Shown here: piece by piece, positions 3,095 through 8,323 of the stretch
Layout: every line of letters begins with the position of its first letter
How positions within the stretch are numbered: position 1 is the first letter of the stretch
From: Desulfobacteraceae bacterium
GTDB taxonomy: Bacteria > Desulfobacterota > DSM-4660 > Desulfatiglandales > HGW-15
DNA length: 10,444 nt
Assembly: GCA_003819975.1 (NCBI GenBank)
Contig: RPPU01000103.1
Span: 1 to 10,444 of the forward strand
Direction of reading: 5' to 3'
Made by a program: the position numbers and the translations under genes
The notes under the pieces: generated by a model
Databases searched by the model: none
Told to the model about the DNA's origin: nothing
What the model saw: only the letters and a program-made list of their open reading frames with translations

Positions 3095-3126
3095 AAAGCC
3101 CCCTGCAGAGGGCTGCAGGGGGCTTT
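3095..3126. terminator. Bidirectional intrinsic terminator, 14-bp perfect stem
   Basis: The left arm AAAGCCCCCTGCAG (3095-3108) and right arm CTGCAGGGGGCTTT (3113-3126) are perfectly complementary around a 4-base loop (AGGG). The hairpin starts 5 bases after the nuclease stop codon. On the plus strand the U-tract is formed only by the end of the stem. On the minus strand the hairpin runs into TTTTT, so it can also end transcripts of the convergent minus-strand gene at 3242-3733. Confidence 0.85.
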
Positions 3127-3241: not shown

Positions 3242-3733
3242 TCAACTCCAATAGGCCGCCAATTTGGCATTATTCGCAATCGGAAAGTCCGTCTTTTCGC
3301 TCCTGAATTCAATATACTCTGCAACGGTCGCAGCCTTTGACCAGGCTGCATACTCGTCCGCGGAAATCGCCGATTCGGCATAGCAGGCGAATTCATGCGA
3401 ACCGTCTTCGCGCGAGCAATCTTTCGGTTGCATATCGACGGTATTGAACTCGCTGACATCAAGAATGGTTTCCATATAGGGCGAAAAGCGAAAAACCTTG
3501 GTGACATGCGGGAAAGCGAGAACAAAGCCGATGCCTTCCTGTTTGCCCGCGAGAAACATTTTTTCAAAATCATCCTGTGTATGCGGACAGTGCGCCCATT
3601 CGTATTGTTCGGGCTTGTCTCGGCCTATGACCGAGATATAATAAACTTTAAAAACCGATTTTCCGTCAGGCATCCGCAGCAGAGTTTGTTTAACCGTTCG
3701 AGCATGATACGTTCTGCAGCTCATGATTTGCAT
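3242..3733 (-). CDS. Uncharacterised protein, 163 aa
   Basis: I do not recognise this family. The ATG at 3733 is preceded by AGAGG (3740-3744) at 6-base spacing, so I prefer it to the second ATG three codons later. The protein is soluble-looking, with no signal peptide or membrane segment. It is rich in aromatic and acidic residues and holds five cysteines, among them WAHCPHT, PKDCS and FACYAE; no zinc-binding pair of CxxC type is seen. The middle (FVLAFPHVTKVFRFSPYMETILDV) looks like a beta-rich core, and the C-terminal third is probably helical. The overlapping plus-strand frame lacks a ribosome site and reads like a shadow. The gene lies on the same strand as, and 173 bases after, the SLOG gene, but has its own ribosome site and a terminator-like hairpin before it, so it is probably separately transcribed. 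Its composition is closer to the flanks than to the AT-rich pair. Confidence 0.7.
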   Translation of the reverse strand: MQIMSCRTYHARTVKQTLLRMPDGKSVFKVYYISVIGRDKPEQYEWAHCPHTQDDFEKMFLAGKQEGIGFVLAFPHVTKVFRFSPYMETILDVSEFNTVDMQPKDCSREDGSHEFACYAESAISADEYAAWSKAATVAEYIEFRSEKTDFPIANNAKLAAYWS

Positions 3734-3788
3734 AAATGACCTCTATGGTGTTCAAGCTTTTCAATCTGAGTTTATCTTACCAACCTGG

Positions 3789-3818
3789 AAAAACAGTAAA
3801 AACAATCTTGTGATTGTT
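3789..3818 (-). terminator. Weak terminator-like hairpin after the SLOG gene
   Basis: Read on the minus strand, AACAATC-ACAA-GATTGTT forms a 7-bp stem (arms 3812-3818 and 3801-3807) with a 4-base loop. It is followed at once by TTTTTACTGTTTTT (ending near 3789). The stem is AT-rich and therefore weak, but the T-run, and the position about 90 bases after the SLOG stop codon, fit an intrinsic terminator of the two-gene unit. Confidence 0.35.
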
Positions 3819-3906
3819 CAAATCCGTAGTGCCCAAGTCGATAGGGTCCTGAGCATACCTGAATGATATTACACAATTATTTTTTTAGATCTCTGAAGTT
3901 CGGCTA

Positions 3907-4479
3907 TCATTCTCGTAAAAAATTGAACTCATTTTGAAATGGCCGTTCTTTTTTGAGCATTTGAGAAAGGTTAAGTTTTTTTTCAAAAATATCCATGAAT
4001 TTCTTTTCGCATTTACTTAGAAGCTTTTCACAGTCGCCAAAGGAAGCCAGATTAAAAAACTCCTTACTTGAAGAAAAATAAACCAAAGCTTTTTTATTGT
4101 CATTCAATAGGTTTAAAACATTATTTAAAGTTCCTTTACTTTTACCATCCCAAATCATGAACCCATAATCAGCTTCCCTAGCCATTTCCAAATCTTTAAT
4201 TGCAAAATAATGGAAATCTTTTTTCTTTCCGGCCCCATTCGAATGTATTTGATTTATCTCCCAATGACCAATGTTATTTCTGCACCCATTGCTCATGCAA
4301 AATATACGGACATTTCCATAATTATTTTCAAATAAATATTCTTGCACGCATTTGTCTACGCCATCGGCATCTCCAACAAAAATCGTGTATTCTTTTTGCA
4401 TAATATTATCTATTCTGTCTTTTATATCCGTATTTAACTTTGATATATTTCTCGATCCACCTATAAAAATCTTTATCAT
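3907..4479 (-). CDS. SLOG-fold (YspA/DprA-like) nucleotide-binding protein, 190 aa
   Basis: The N-terminus KIFIGGSR (residues 3-10), then FVGDADGVDKCVQEYL (34-49) and ADYGFMIWDGKSKGTLNN (103-120), follow the order seen in SLOG Rossmannoid proteins (YspA/DUF2493, related to DprA and LOG): a first strand ending in GGSR, a glycine/aspartate loop followed by a helix, and a late strand before a GxxxGT-type loop. SLOG proteins bind nucleotides or nucleotide-derived ligands, and some hydrolyse or sense them. The conserved CRNNIGHWE stretch (66-74) is shared, as far as I recall, with an uncharacterised SLOG subfamily. The C-terminal 50 residues are lysine-rich and helical. The start is fixed by AGGAG (4486-4490) at 6-base spacing. 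Its ATG overlaps the stop of the phosphoribosyltransferase gene (ATGA), indicating translational coupling. The gene is markedly AT-rich (for example 14 of 60 bases are G or C at 4081-4140) and may be acquired. Fold assignment is good; ligand and role are unknown. Confidence 0.78.
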   Translation of the reverse strand: MIKIFIGGSRNISKLNTDIKDRIDNIMQKEYTIFVGDADGVDKCVQEYLFENNYGNVRIFCMSNGCRNNIGHWEINQIHSNGAGKKKDFHYFAIKDLEMAREADYGFMIWDGKSKGTLNNVLNLLNDNKKALVYFSSSKEFFNLASFGDCEKLLSKCEKKFMDIFEKKLNLSQMLKKERPFQNEFNFLRE

Positions 4480-5075
4480 GACATGCTCCTTGTTTTGGTC
4501 AGTGCCAACACATAAACTTTACTGACATTTCCGCTTTGATATAAAACGCGAGTTATGGCATTACATGTCGCTCCGGATCTGTATAAGTCGTCAAAAACCA
4601 AAACATTCTTTCCCTTGAGTGACGGATTTTCGGCAATAAAAGCATTGTTTAATGATTCCATTCTTTTCTGATAGTCAAAGACATTTTTCAGTTCCGGAGT
4701 TTCTTTTACTTTGACCAAATAACCCTCATACAAAGGTATATGTAACAAAACGCTTATACCTTTAGCAACTTCCAGTACGGGCTGAAAAACTCTTCCCCTG
4801 GAGGGAGGAACCGGCACTATCCCGTCTAATATTTTGGCAATTTTCCATTCAGTATTTACAAATTTTTCTATAACACTTAATATCTCTTTCAAGGGGGATT
4901 TATCCGATTGATATTTAAGCCTATACAACAGCTCCCCCATCTCGCTTCTTTTCGTATCGAAAACTTCATGACCAAATTCATCATGCCCCAAGAATTCACT
5001 GCTAATGGTATGTATATCCAAAGCATATCCTTCAACCCAATTACCTGTTAATTTTATGGGATTAATATTTACCAT
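4476..5075 (-). CDS. ComF-like phosphoribosyltransferase, 199 aa
   Basis: The type I phosphoribosyltransferase PRPP loop is visible as VLVFDDLYRSGAT (residues 158-170): two adjacent aspartates followed by the SGAT turn. An upstream PVPPSRGR segment (88-95) matches the strand and loop before the substrate hood in ComF proteins. The N-terminal part (GYALDIHT, FDTKRSEMGELLYRLKY) is shared with ComF-like proteins, but the cysteine zinc ribbon of true ComFC is absent. Enzymes of this class move a phosphoribosyl group between PRPP and a base or other acceptor; the acceptor is unknown here. The ATG at 5075 (199 aa) is preferred to the TTG at 5114 because GGGAG (5086-5090) lies 10 bases before it and nothing suitable precedes the TTG. 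The gene is first in a two-gene unit, its stop overlapping the SLOG start. It is AT-rich like its partner. Confidence 0.8.
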   Translation of the reverse strand: MVNINPIKLTGNWVEGYALDIHTISSEFLGHDEFGHEVFDTKRSEMGELLYRLKYQSDKSPLKEILSVIEKFVNTEWKIAKILDGIVPVPPSRGRVFQPVLEVAKGISVLLHIPLYEGYLVKVKETPELKNVFDYQKRMESLNNAFIAENPSLKGKNVLVFDDLYRSGATCNAITRVLYQSGNVSKVYVLALTKTRSMS

Positions 5076-5085
5076 TATCGATTTG

Positions 5086-5090
5086 CTCCC
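5086..5090 (-). promoter_or_regulatory. Ribosome binding site deciding the phosphoribosyltransferase start
   Basis: GGGAG on the minus strand sits 10 bases before the ATG at 5075. The longer frame back to TTG at 5114 has no Shine-Dalgarno match at useful spacing, so the extra 13 residues are probably not translated. Confidence 0.5.
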
Positions 5091-5158
5091 AATTTTGTTA
5101 CTTGTAATTGGCAAATTTGTAAAGCCTGATGGATTTTATGATCAAGGAAATTTATTCT

Positions 5159-5187
5159 TTAATAAAAGTCACTGTGCATTTTATCAA
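5159..5187 (-). promoter_or_regulatory. Possible sigma-70 promoter of the phosphoribosyltransferase-SLOG unit
   Basis: On the minus strand TTGATA (5182-5187, 5 of 6 matches to TTGACA) and TATTAA (5159-5164, 4 of 6 to TATAAT) are separated by exactly 17 bases. Transcription would start near 5152 and leave a leader of roughly 77 bases before the ATG at 5075. The surroundings are very AT-rich, so chance matches are likely. Confidence 0.35.
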
Positions 5188-5238
5188 AACAATGCTAAAA
5201 AGAAAATTCAAATAAATTTTCCCTTGCATATCAACTAG

Positions 5239-5253
5239 TTGCATGCATTGCAA
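5239..5253. repeat. Short inverted repeat TTGCA-N5-TGCAA
   Basis: TTGCA (5239-5243) and TGCAA (5249-5253) are inverted around TGCAT, with a nested palindrome TGCATGCA at 5240-5247. A further TTGCAT lies at 5224-5229. The position, about 50-60 bases before the proposed minus-strand promoter, would suit an operator, but the sites are short and the assignment is a guess. Confidence 0.3.
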
Positions 5254-5333
5254 AAAAATAAATTTCAAAAAACAGGTCTATAATCCACAAAAAAATTTTG
5301 ATTTTAAGTTCCTTTCGTCTAATAAGCTATGAT

Positions 5334-5368
5334 ATCTTTAATCTTTAATAGGTAAACAAAATAAAGAT
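5334..5368. repeat. Tandem ATCTTTA with an inverted copy
   Basis: ATCTTTA occurs twice in tandem (5334-5340, 5341-5347), and its exact reverse complement TAAAGAT lies at 5362-5368, separated by 14 bases. It could form a small hairpin or a regulator site about 95 bases before the transporter start. Low base complexity makes chance plausible. Confidence 0.3.
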
Positions 5369-5461
5369 AAAAAACAAAAACATTTCAACTGGTTACCGCA
5401 AAAAAACACTTAAAAATATTATTTGCGATAGAATAAAACGGGAGATAATCCAATCATCGTC

Positions 5462-6925: not shown

Positions 6926-7204
6926 TTACTTCTTCCCTTCCTGATGACCATCGCCGTCCGGCTTGACGAGATTTTCCATTCGAACTTTTGAAATTCGTTG
7001 CCCCACCATCTCCTTGACGAAAATCCGTTTGCCGTCCACCTCCACCACATCGCCGATGCGGGGGATCTTCTGCAACCGGGTGATCAAAAACCCGGCCAGG
7101 GTCTCGTACTCCGGCGATTCCGGAATGGTGATCTGATGATCTTCTTTTAGATCCGCAAACTGATCGCCGCGTCGATCAACCAACTGCCGTCCGAAAGTTT
7201 GCAA
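6926..7204 (-). CDS. C-terminal CorC/HlyC domain fragment of the frameshifted CNNM/CorC gene
   Basis: From about 7153 to the stop this frame encodes DLKEDHQITIPESPEYETLAGFL, then RIGDVVEVDGKRIFVKEM and RISKVRMENL. This is the transporter-associated CorC/HlyC domain that normally ends CNNM/CorC proteins. The first 17 residues, from 7204 to about 7154, are merely the out-of-frame reading of sequence that encodes SDGSWLIDAAISLR in the other frame, and the apparent TTG/ATG-like start has no ribosome site. This is therefore not an independent gene but the tail of the preceding frame. Joined after ISLR, the whole protein would be about 443 residues, normal for the family. The alternative, a separately translated domain, is unlikely. 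Confidence 0.7.
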   Translation of the reverse strand: MQTFGRQLVDRRGDQFADLKEDHQITIPESPEYETLAGFLITRLQKIPRIGDVVEVDGKRIFVKEMVGQRISKVRMENLVKPDGDGHQEGKK

Positions 7205-8256
7205 ACCGGGCTTTCCGTGTCGTATTCGTCGCGGATTTCGCCCACGATTTCCTCGATCAAATCTTCAATGGACACCAGTCCGGAAATGCCGCCGTATTCA
7301 TCCACCACCAGGGCCATGTGAACCCTCTTTTTCTGCATTTCCCGTAATAATAGACTGATCTTCATGGTTGCCGGGATATAGAAAGAAGGCTTGATGATCT
7401 TACGGATATCGATTTTCCCGGTTTTGGCCATGATCGTTAAGAAATCCTTGGCATAGAGAACACCCATGATGTCGTTGGGTTCGTCGCCGTAAACCGGGTA
7501 ACGCGAAAACTGTTCTTTTTCCATGATGGTCATGATTTCCTGGGTGGTCTGATCGATTTGGATCGTCACCATCTGAGTGGTCGGGATCATGACTTCCTTG
7601 ACCGACATATCCGTGAACGCGAAAACGCTTTGCAGAATTCTCTCCTCGGTCGGTTCGAACACACCGTGCTTGCCGCCCTCGCGAATCAACATCTTGACTT
7701 CTTCTTCGGTAATATGCGCCTTTTCAGCGGCAGCCCGGATCCCGAACGGTTTCAGTACGATGGTGCTGCTCCAGGTCAGGATTTGAATAAAAACATGGCC
7801 GATTCGGGAAAAAAAATCAACGGCGCGGGCGGTTCCCAAAGCAATGCTTTCCGGATAGCGTAAGGCAATGGACTTGGGCACCAATTCGCCGAAGATCAGG
7901 GTAAAATAGGTGATGAGAACCACCACAAGCCCAATCGCGATCGGCTCAGCCGAGAGCGCCACCCACTTGATCGGCACTTGCTTTAAAATGGGTCCCAATA
8001 CTTCCACCGAAGCCGCACCGCCGATGGCCGAAGCCAAAGCGCCGACCAAAGTAATCCCGACCTGGATCGTGGCCAAAAACCGCTCCGGGTCGTCTTTTAA
8101 CTTCAGGAGAATATCCGCATTTCTTCTGCCGCCTTCGGTCAATTGCTTGACCCGAGTCTTGCGGGCCGATATGACGGCGATTTCCGTTCCGGCCAAAAAG
8201 CCGTTTAATAGAATCAAAAGCGCAATCAGAAAAATCTCCAAAAACAATTCCGACAT
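7147..8256 (-). CDS. CNNM/CorC (HlyC/CorC) membrane protein, interrupted by a frameshift
   Basis: The N-terminal DUF21/CNNM membrane domain (residues 1 to about 180) holds several hydrophobic helices, with LNGFLAGTEIAVISARKTRV and FGELVPKSIALRYPE visible. A CBS pair follows (about 215-345), with MIPTTQMVTI, YPVYGDEPNDIMGVLYAKDF and VVDEYGGISGLVSIEDLIEEIVGEI. Family members are linked to Mg2+ or other ion transport and to envelope homeostasis, with CBS domains sensing adenine nucleotides. The frame stops at 7147 right after DGSWLIDAAISLR. The missing CorC/HlyC domain continues in the next frame (6926-7153), consistent with one lost G in CGGGAT near 7151-7155. The ATG at 8256 is preferred to the one at 8295 because GGAGGT (8263-8268) stands 6 bases before it. 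The gene follows the TIGR00300 gene by about 110 bases and is probably the last of its operon. Confidence 0.85.
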   Translation of the reverse strand: MSELFLEIFLIALLILLNGFLAGTEIAVISARKTRVKQLTEGGRRNADILLKLKDDPERFLATIQVGITLVGALASAIGGAASVEVLGPILKQVPIKWVALSAEPIAIGLVVVLITYFTLIFGELVPKSIALRYPESIALGTARAVDFFSRIGHVFIQILTWSSTIVLKPFGIRAAAEKAHITEEEVKMLIREGGKHGVFEPTEERILQSVFAFTDMSVKEVMIPTTQMVTIQIDQTTQEIMTIMEKEQFSRYPVYGDEPNDIMGVLYAKDFLTIMAKTGKIDIRKIIKPSFYIPATMKISLLLREMQKKRVHMALVVDEYGGISGLVSIEDLIEEIVGEIRDEYDTESPVCKLSDGSWLIDAAISLRI

Positions 8257-8262
8257 ACCAGA

Positions 8263-8268
8263 ACCTCC
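8263..8268 (-). promoter_or_regulatory. Strong ribosome binding site fixing the CorC start
   Basis: GGAGGT on the minus strand lies 6 bases before ATG 8256, near-ideal sequence and spacing. It shows that the 13 extra residues in the longer frame (from 8295) are not part of the protein. Confidence 0.75.
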
Positions 8269-8323
8269 GAAAAATTCGTTTTTATCGCAAATCATTCCGA
8301 ATTGATTTTTATTTTATTATCCG

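Follow-up and report, generated by a model that had tools for sequence, protein, structure and literature searches.

A compact phosphoribosyltransferase-SLOG gene pair of probable toxin-antitoxin type on a Desulfobacteraceae contig

The first 10,444 nucleotides of contig RPPU01000103.1 from a Desulfobacteraceae bacterium (assembly GCA_003819975.1), hereafter the window, carry two overlapping genes that encode a ComF-like phosphoribosyltransferase (PRTase) and a small protein of the SLOG superfamily. These genes form a self-contained, horizontally mobile module that recurs on chromosomes, plasmids and viral contigs, and comparison with known systems makes it likely that the pair belongs, in compact form, to the ShosTA/RqlHI type of toxin-antitoxin systems, in which the PRTase is the toxin and the SLOG protein its antitoxin. 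A reading made from the sequence alone had seen in the pair a possible maker or sensor of a nucleotide or ribosyl signal. What we found speaks more for toxin-antitoxin logic, because the SLOG gene is kept beside broken PRTase genes, because six SLOG relatives are fused to helix-turn-helix (HTH) domains of the antitoxin type, and because ShosT and ShosA are among the closest folds of the two proteins.

Layout and composition of the gene pair

The features of the pair are as follows, with the basis of each in brackets where it applies.

4476..5075, minus strand: ComF-like PRTase gene, 199 amino acids (aa), proposed toxin (open reading frame, profiles, model, Foldseek)
3907..4479, minus strand: SLOG-superfamily gene, 190 aa, proposed antitoxin
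4476..4479, minus strand: ATGA overlap of PRTase stop and SLOG start (sequence; the -4 overlap recurs in other loci)
4486..4491, minus strand: Shine-Dalgarno-like AAGGAG for the SLOG gene, within the PRTase gene (sequence)
4566..4595, minus strand: phosphoribosyl pyrophosphate (PRPP)-binding motif FDDLYRSGAT, PRTase residues 161-170 (conservation among 78 paired proteins)
4450..4461, minus strand: SLOG motif GGSR, residues 7-10 (conservation in relatives)
4351..4374, minus strand: SLOG motif GDADGVDK, residues 36-43 (conservation among 78 paired proteins)
4129..4152, minus strand: SLOG motif WDGKSKGT, residues 110-117 (conservation among 78 paired proteins)
3734..5461, no strand: AT-rich block of the pair and flanking non-coding DNA, likely an acquired segment (composition)

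The PRTase gene (5075-4476) comes first and is followed by the SLOG gene (4479-3907), whose ATG (4479-4477) overlaps the PRTase stop codon TGA (4478-4476). AAGGAG (4491-4486) precedes the SLOG start and a shorter Shine-Dalgarno match, GGGAG, the PRTase start; the list of open reading frames also offers a TTG at 5114 as alternative PRTase start, with most homologues beginning at the ATG at 5075. The overlapping pair that the sequence-only reading had placed here is thus confirmed in strand, coordinates and ATGA junction, and the four motifs it had named all lie in the genes to which it had assigned them.

In G+C content, the PRTase (0.37) and SLOG (0.31) genes contrast with the six other genes of the window (0.48-0.56), as they do at third codon positions (0.35 and 0.29 vs 0.53-0.67), and the non-coding stretch at 5076-5461 has 26% G+C. 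The codon use of the pair correlates with that of the flanking genes at 0.64, compared with 0.78-0.90 when any one flanking gene is set against the rest. The scan therefore agrees with the earlier remark that the composition of the pair lies far below that of its flanks, and this foreign composition, together with copies on plasmids and viral contigs, supports the suggested horizontal transfer.

Recurrence, co-divergence and spread

Adjacency of the two genes in other genomes, set beforehand as a test of the pair, was found again and again. A scan of a species-genome collection, with PRTase presence counted by an iterated profile, gave 92 SLOG relatives of which 80 were kept; 69 of these 80 genome loci have a PRTase gene, or what remains of one, immediately before the SLOG gene (within ca. 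70 nt upstream, same strand), with a weak PRTase at L048 (a 65-bit match) and with L005, L025 and L039 cut by a contig end. By record title, the paired loci belong to Planctomycetes, Nitrospirae, Chloroflexi, Acidobacteria, Clostridia, Proteobacteria and others. Another 24 loci stem from viral contigs. Three of them (L102-L104) are weak partial SLOG matches and a fourth (L087) lacks upstream DNA; a PRTase gene or remnant precedes SLOG in 17 of the remaining 20. Both starts can be placed in 42 genome loci, of which 28 retain the -4 overlap; together with the recurrence of the pair, this makes the arrangement more than a chance one. The Shine-Dalgarno match in these 42 is longer for SLOG in 25, longer for the PRTase in nine and equal in eight.

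The two proteins diverge together. Across 78 pairs (53 genome, 16 viral and eight plasmid loci with unbroken PRTase, and the window), the pairwise distances of PRTase and SLOG correlate with r 0.84, a value reached in 0 of 2000 permutations, and dereplication to 72 leaves the correlation at 0.81.

The spread of the module is patchy, since SLOG occurs in only five of 391 genomes sampled from one class, two of which are known seeds; judged by profile matches, all five are apparently already among the 80 loci. Copies of the pair sit on viral contigs and on plasmids including those of E. coli, Listeria and Klebsiella, and a PRTase search of 72,556 plasmid records at 1e-10 returned 60 records, of which 39 are predicted to be conjugative. 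At E <= 1e-3, the SLOG family comprises 1139 proteins and the PRTase family 2667, the latter probably including other ComF-like proteins. Searching the viral contigs by tblastn with the PRTase alignment found no relative, although the viral loci found through SLOG carry divergent PRTases, and phage records gave no SLOG match and eight records with weak PRTase matches. PADLOC ShosA, PsyrT and ShosT searches in genomes returned only the compact family's own PRTase, generic matches or nothing.

Among 119 nearest neighbours of the paired genome loci, no Pfam family recurs more than four times (Recombinase, 4/119; Resolvase, its zinc ribbon and MFS_1, three each), in line with the self-contained two-gene module that had been read from the sequence.

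Folds and conserved sites

The folds of both proteins fall within the superfamilies proposed for them at the outset, the PRTase showing the PRPP-binding motif and fold of the type I PRTases and the SLOG protein a Rossmann-type fold of the SLOG kind. AlphaFold2 models them with a predicted local distance difference test score of 90.6 (PRTase) and 91.5 (SLOG), and fold and superfamily can be regarded as secure for both, unlike the nearest family. In Foldseek searches against the PDB, the first match by E-value is ShosT (8zvb; 3.5e-6, query template modelling (TM) score 0.53) for the PRTase and ShosA (8zva; 5.2e-5, query TM 0.53) for the SLOG protein. ComF of H. pylori (7p0h) ties with ShosT for the PRTase (E 3.8e-6, with a higher TM of 0.67), and VIA-align scores ComF at 16.2 and ShosT at 12.3. 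For the SLOG protein, VIA-align places YpsA (13.6), molybdenum cofactor (MoCo) carriers (13.0), DprA (12.7) and ShosA (12.5) in a tie (Z within about 1), so that we claim no closest SLOG family. In terms of fold, the pair indeed resembles a minimal ComF/DprA couple, as had been envisaged. Within the PDB, the link to ShosTA came from the fold search alone, with none given by sequence searches with the two proteins.

Among sequence profiles, the PRTase matches PADLOC PsyrT (E 2.7e-18), confined to the last 150 of its 689 positions (537-686), better than PADLOC ShosT (E 2.9e-10), to which the match is also partial (residues 77-197, profile positions 79-213 of 237). NCBIfam comF is matched at 4.6e-13 with 49.5 bits, far under its curated cut-off of 233.55. 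For the SLOG protein, neither NCBIfam nor PADLOC 2.0 gives a match at E <= 1, and the one to Pfam DprA stays below threshold (0.056); neither DUF1273 nor an HTH is among its Pfam matches, and it matches PHROG 289 at 8.4e-9. Of 32 SLOG relatives, 11 show some match to Pfam DprA (best E 0.0024), two to PADLOC ShosA (best E 0.0048) and two to PsyrA.

Residue conservation among the 78 paired proteins would fit an active PRTase enzyme and a working SLOG ligand pocket. On the PRTase side, K54, R95, K122, K130, D162, D163 and G168 are kept in 97-100%, including the PRPP motif aspartates D162 (99%) and D163 (97%). The SLOG residues G8, G36, D37, G40, D42, Q46, R67, N68, N69, W73, D96, G106, W110, S114, G116 and N120 are kept in 99-100%, with G36, G40 and D42 of GDADGVDK and W110, S114 and G116 of WDGKSKGT present in all. 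For GGSR, the last three residues are invariant among 32 close relatives; in the 78, only G8 is (S9 65/78, R10 44/78, G7 36/78).

Asymmetric loss of the two genes

For type II toxin-antitoxin systems, the antitoxin is expected to be retained where the toxin is lost and not the reverse, and this is the pattern that we found with a single exception (L140, see below). SLOG adjoins the PRTase in 58 of the 60 plasmid records found through the PRTase (47 by matching rows by eye with 60 of the 95 SLOG plasmid records; H52, H53-H55, H59-H62 and H106-H108 individually). Both records without SLOG have a broken PRTase, namely L129 of Xanthomonas perforans and L130 of Citrobacter braakii, the latter with an adjacent IS1 transposase. 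Conversely, SLOG is intact where the PRTase is broken by a stop (L126), where it is split by IS3 (L143), and on Agrobacterium vitis/Allorhizobium plasmids with shared PRTase breaks (L127, L128, L133, L141, L131, L134 and L142), some copies of which additionally contain IS869 or have IS481 at their border. Since many plasmid records are near-identical, they reflect only a handful of independent events: three with SLOG kept, with separate histories, and two with both genes damaged or lost. Among the 60 of 95 SLOG plasmid records listed, 13 have no row in the PRTase search; one of these is the IS3-split case (H118/L143), and four (L120-L123) have no PRTase within 5 kb.

Of 83 genome and viral loci found through SLOG, 16 have no single open reading frame that reaches 80% coverage of the PRTase model; three of these (L023, L048 and L085) have a long enough frame, leaving 13 that are clearly broken. 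The SLOG frame is split in none of 101 loci, a set that was itself found through SLOG.

Domain fusions and stand-alone SLOG genes

A C-terminal HTH was found on SLOG in all six relatives scanned for such a domain, all from Pseudomonadota; the six had been picked after annotations or long C-terminal extensions were seen, so the figure is not a rate, and L066 is the only one of the 80 genome loci with such an extension. Two of them (L110, 7.6e-23; L114, 6.4e-21) carry PF21716, a "probable addiction module antidote protein" domain, and four (L066, L113, L116 and L117; 1.4e-16 to 1e-19) carry PF13744 (HTH_37), a domain common in antitoxins. That one SLOG core carries HTH domains of two kinds supports an antitoxin role.

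No PRTase lies upstream of SLOG in 11 of the 80 genome loci and three viral loci. From translations at all 14, we chose five genome loci for a scan of their neighbours, and PADLOC shows that each of these five orphan SLOG genes adjoins or sits inside a defence operon: alongside JetA/JetB of Wadjet (L041), between Mod and Res of a type III restriction system (L046), next to AbiEi/AbiEii (L068), next to a HEC-01/AriA-like ATPase and its partner (L061) and next to a type II methyltransferase (L009). At the paired genome loci, the survey of defence genes that the sequence-only reading had proposed gave no clear enrichment: PADLOC families at 1e-30 number 76 among the 119 neighbours within 1.2 kb vs 56 among 119 genes out of the 139 that lie beyond 6.5 kb (Pfam and PADLOC searches, with matches not counted per gene).

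Other forms of SLOG were seen besides. The stand-alone genes on viral contigs L090, L099 and L100 (102, 180 and 28 kb) are possible phage-carried antidotes, and a fourth viral contig (L102) encodes a 259-aa protein with a weak SLOG match. The orphan SLOG genes of L120-L123, on rhizobial and Methylobacterium plasmids, are followed by DUF736 genes and have other toxin-antitoxin genes in their vicinity. In protein P0119, the first 39 residues of a SLOG protein resemble a PRTase start, the remaining PRTase having apparently been deleted in frame with SLOG kept.

Proposed mechanism and alternative explanations

By analogy, from which we infer toxicity, direct binding or neutralisation, chemistry and trigger alike, the window pair would work like RqlHI and ShosTA. 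The PRTase, as toxin, may use its conserved PRPP site to consume PRPP or modify nucleotides, and when free would disturb the nucleotide pool or DNA so that growth stops. The SLOG protein, made from the overlapping second gene with the better ribosome site, would bind and restrain it. Spreading horizontally, the module could release its toxin upon infection or upon its own loss and so serve phage defence, addiction or both. Within this toxin-antitoxin model, the SLOG pocket may still act as a sensor.

Several observations weigh against it. The DNA-binding domain of type II antitoxins is absent from the window SLOG, though present in the six fused relatives, and the window protein, at 190 aa against 303 positions, has no match to the ShosA profile at E <= 1. 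The PRTase fold is no closer to ShosT than to ComF, which ties or beats it. At locus L140, the PRTase is divergent but intact, and the 2.7 kb that follow it contain no SLOG gene; the contig ends just upstream. Among the five SLOG genomes of the class sample, one has an intact PRTase, two have a remnant and two none, and the four PRTase matches there are two partial ComF-like proteins, one paired PRTase and L140; this result lowers our confidence in the toxin-antitoxin reading. Finally, according to excerpts of PMC4670107, the RqlH PRTase domain alone is insufficient, which speaks against a simple transfer to the window pair.

Of the alternatives, a selfish, plasmid-style addiction module without defence role is the most credible, if less likely than not to be the whole story. 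It shares its toxin-antitoxin core with the reading that we prefer and differs in the benefit alone, so that the chances of the two overlap. The many plasmid copies (the 60 PRTase records, 39 of them predicted conjugative), the proximity of some to other toxin-antitoxin genes and HTH domains that could autoregulate are in its favour, whereas the 80 loci from genome assemblies, many on long contigs, and the anti-phage activity published for a DprA-PRTase pair (excerpt of PMC9122126) count against it.

A bolder elaboration of the toxin-antitoxin reading strikes us as doubtful: the SLOG antitoxin would itself be the sensor, its pocket reading a metabolite changed by infection and freeing the PRTase, and would also have been recruited without PRTase as a shared control subunit in Wadjet, type III restriction, AbiE and HEC-01/PARIS-like operons, with phages carrying stand-alone antidote copies.

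Slightly less probable still is a signal-and-effector defence akin to Thoeris, in which infection would lead the PRTase to produce a nucleotide or ribosyl signal, with SLOG as the ligand-gated effector or sensor. This would suit the conserved motif residues of both proteins and the nucleotide binding of SLOG-fold proteins (LOG with AMP, TRPM2 with ADP-ribose; ThsA is also among the fold matches), and the association of SLOG/YpsA with PRTases is discussed alongside nucleotide-centred conflict systems in PMC6459960. However, a SLOG protein of merely 190 aa has no effector domain and the HTH fusions are of the antitoxin type, and two-part signalling predicts neither an intact SLOG where the PRTase is destroyed nor the breakage of the lone PRTase itself in two of three cases (L129 and L130; not L140).

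A housekeeping pair for nucleotide salvage or competence, handling single-stranded DNA jointly or salvaging bases in the manner of ComFC and DprA, is very improbable given its patchy distribution (5/391 genomes), its location on plasmids of E. coli, Listeria and Klebsiella and on viral contigs, its AT-rich foreign composition and a comF score of 49.5 against a cut-off of 233.55.

Other features of the window

The flanking genes encode a nuclease/PKD protein, an MFS transporter, a CNNM/CBS protein, an ArgZ-like protein, an NAD-binding protein and, adjoining the pair, a 163-aa protein (3242-3733) that has no family match better than E 0.05 in profile searches. Among the 120 listed relatives of the ArgZ-like protein, the four that carry an organism name are all from Spirochaetes metagenome-assembled genomes (58-68%), a number too small to assign a host. 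Directly after the nuclease/PKD gene, the sequence at 3095-3126 can form a strong hairpin of ca. 14 pairs, likely the terminator of that gene. The CNNM/CBS gene (6926-8295) is apparently frameshifted near 7147-7204, its apparent C-terminal part lying in an overlapping open reading frame at 7204-6926, in another frame. Around the AT-rich block, no att-like pair was recognised among repeats that are short and AT-rich, and promoter and terminator scans gave results near the shuffled expectation.

Significance

The module is widely scattered on chromosomes, plasmids and viral contigs, yet none of the gene catalogues searched treats it as a unit; we found no description of the compact PRTase-SLOG family as a toxin-antitoxin system in the open-licence literature searched. 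Surveys built on NCBIfam, PADLOC 2.0 and Pfam may miss it because its SLOG half is unmatched or sub-threshold there. If the toxin-antitoxin reading is right, such small proteins would make questions about ShosTA and RqlHI tractable, such as how the PRTase acts on DNA or nucleotides and what it is that a DprA-like fold detects. Whether defence systems share regulators is a testable question posed by the orphan SLOG genes found next to other defence genes.

Comparison with known systems

With ComFC and DprA of natural competence, the window pair shares the folds and differs in its low comF score and in its scattered, mobile occurrence, where competence genes would form a fixed locus. PRTase-YpsA gene pairs were noted before by Brzozowski and others in 2019 (PMC6459960), and the structure of YpsA (2nx2) is one of several that tie as best match to the window SLOG, which has no DUF1273 among its Pfam matches; the excerpt of that paper proposes no toxin-antitoxin function. 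The window pair is a variant of a kind already known and may belong to the same branch. A two-gene PRTase/SLOG-fold defence pair also occurs on prophages, in a hotspot of P2-like phages, and in the excerpt of PMC9122126 it protects E. coli from T7 and lambda; its partner protein is described as DprA, and the likeness is drawn from the description.

ShosTA, known here from PDB titles (8zva-8zvd; Pu et al. 2025) and part of the review PMC12593503, combines a PRTase toxin with a DprA/SLOG-fold antitoxin in adjacent genes, the arrangement also found in the window; the review describes ShosT as both PRTase and pyrophosphatase, disturbing purine metabolism. The 308-residue chain of ShosA aligns with the window SLOG only over residues 130-290, and identity between the two systems is 13-16% in structural alignments.

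For RqlHI/PsyrTA, PMC4670107 describes the PRTase as the carrier of toxicity and a partner of DprA/MoCo fold as its restraint, with the toxin gene first and the genes close or overlapping as in the window. Without RqlI, the PRTase domain of RqlH causes genotoxicity, for which D663 of its PRPP site is required, and the two proteins interact. The RecQ-type helicase part of RqlH/PsyrT is absent from the 199-aa window PRTase; RqlI has 400 aa with an HTH that is dispensable, whereas the window SLOG has none. Because it lacks the RqlH helicase and the extra parts of ShosA and RqlI, we file the window pair neither as RqlHI nor as ShosTA. If the toxin-antitoxin reading holds, its two-protein core of fewer than 400 residues would represent a minimal design of PRTase-SLOG toxin-antitoxin systems.
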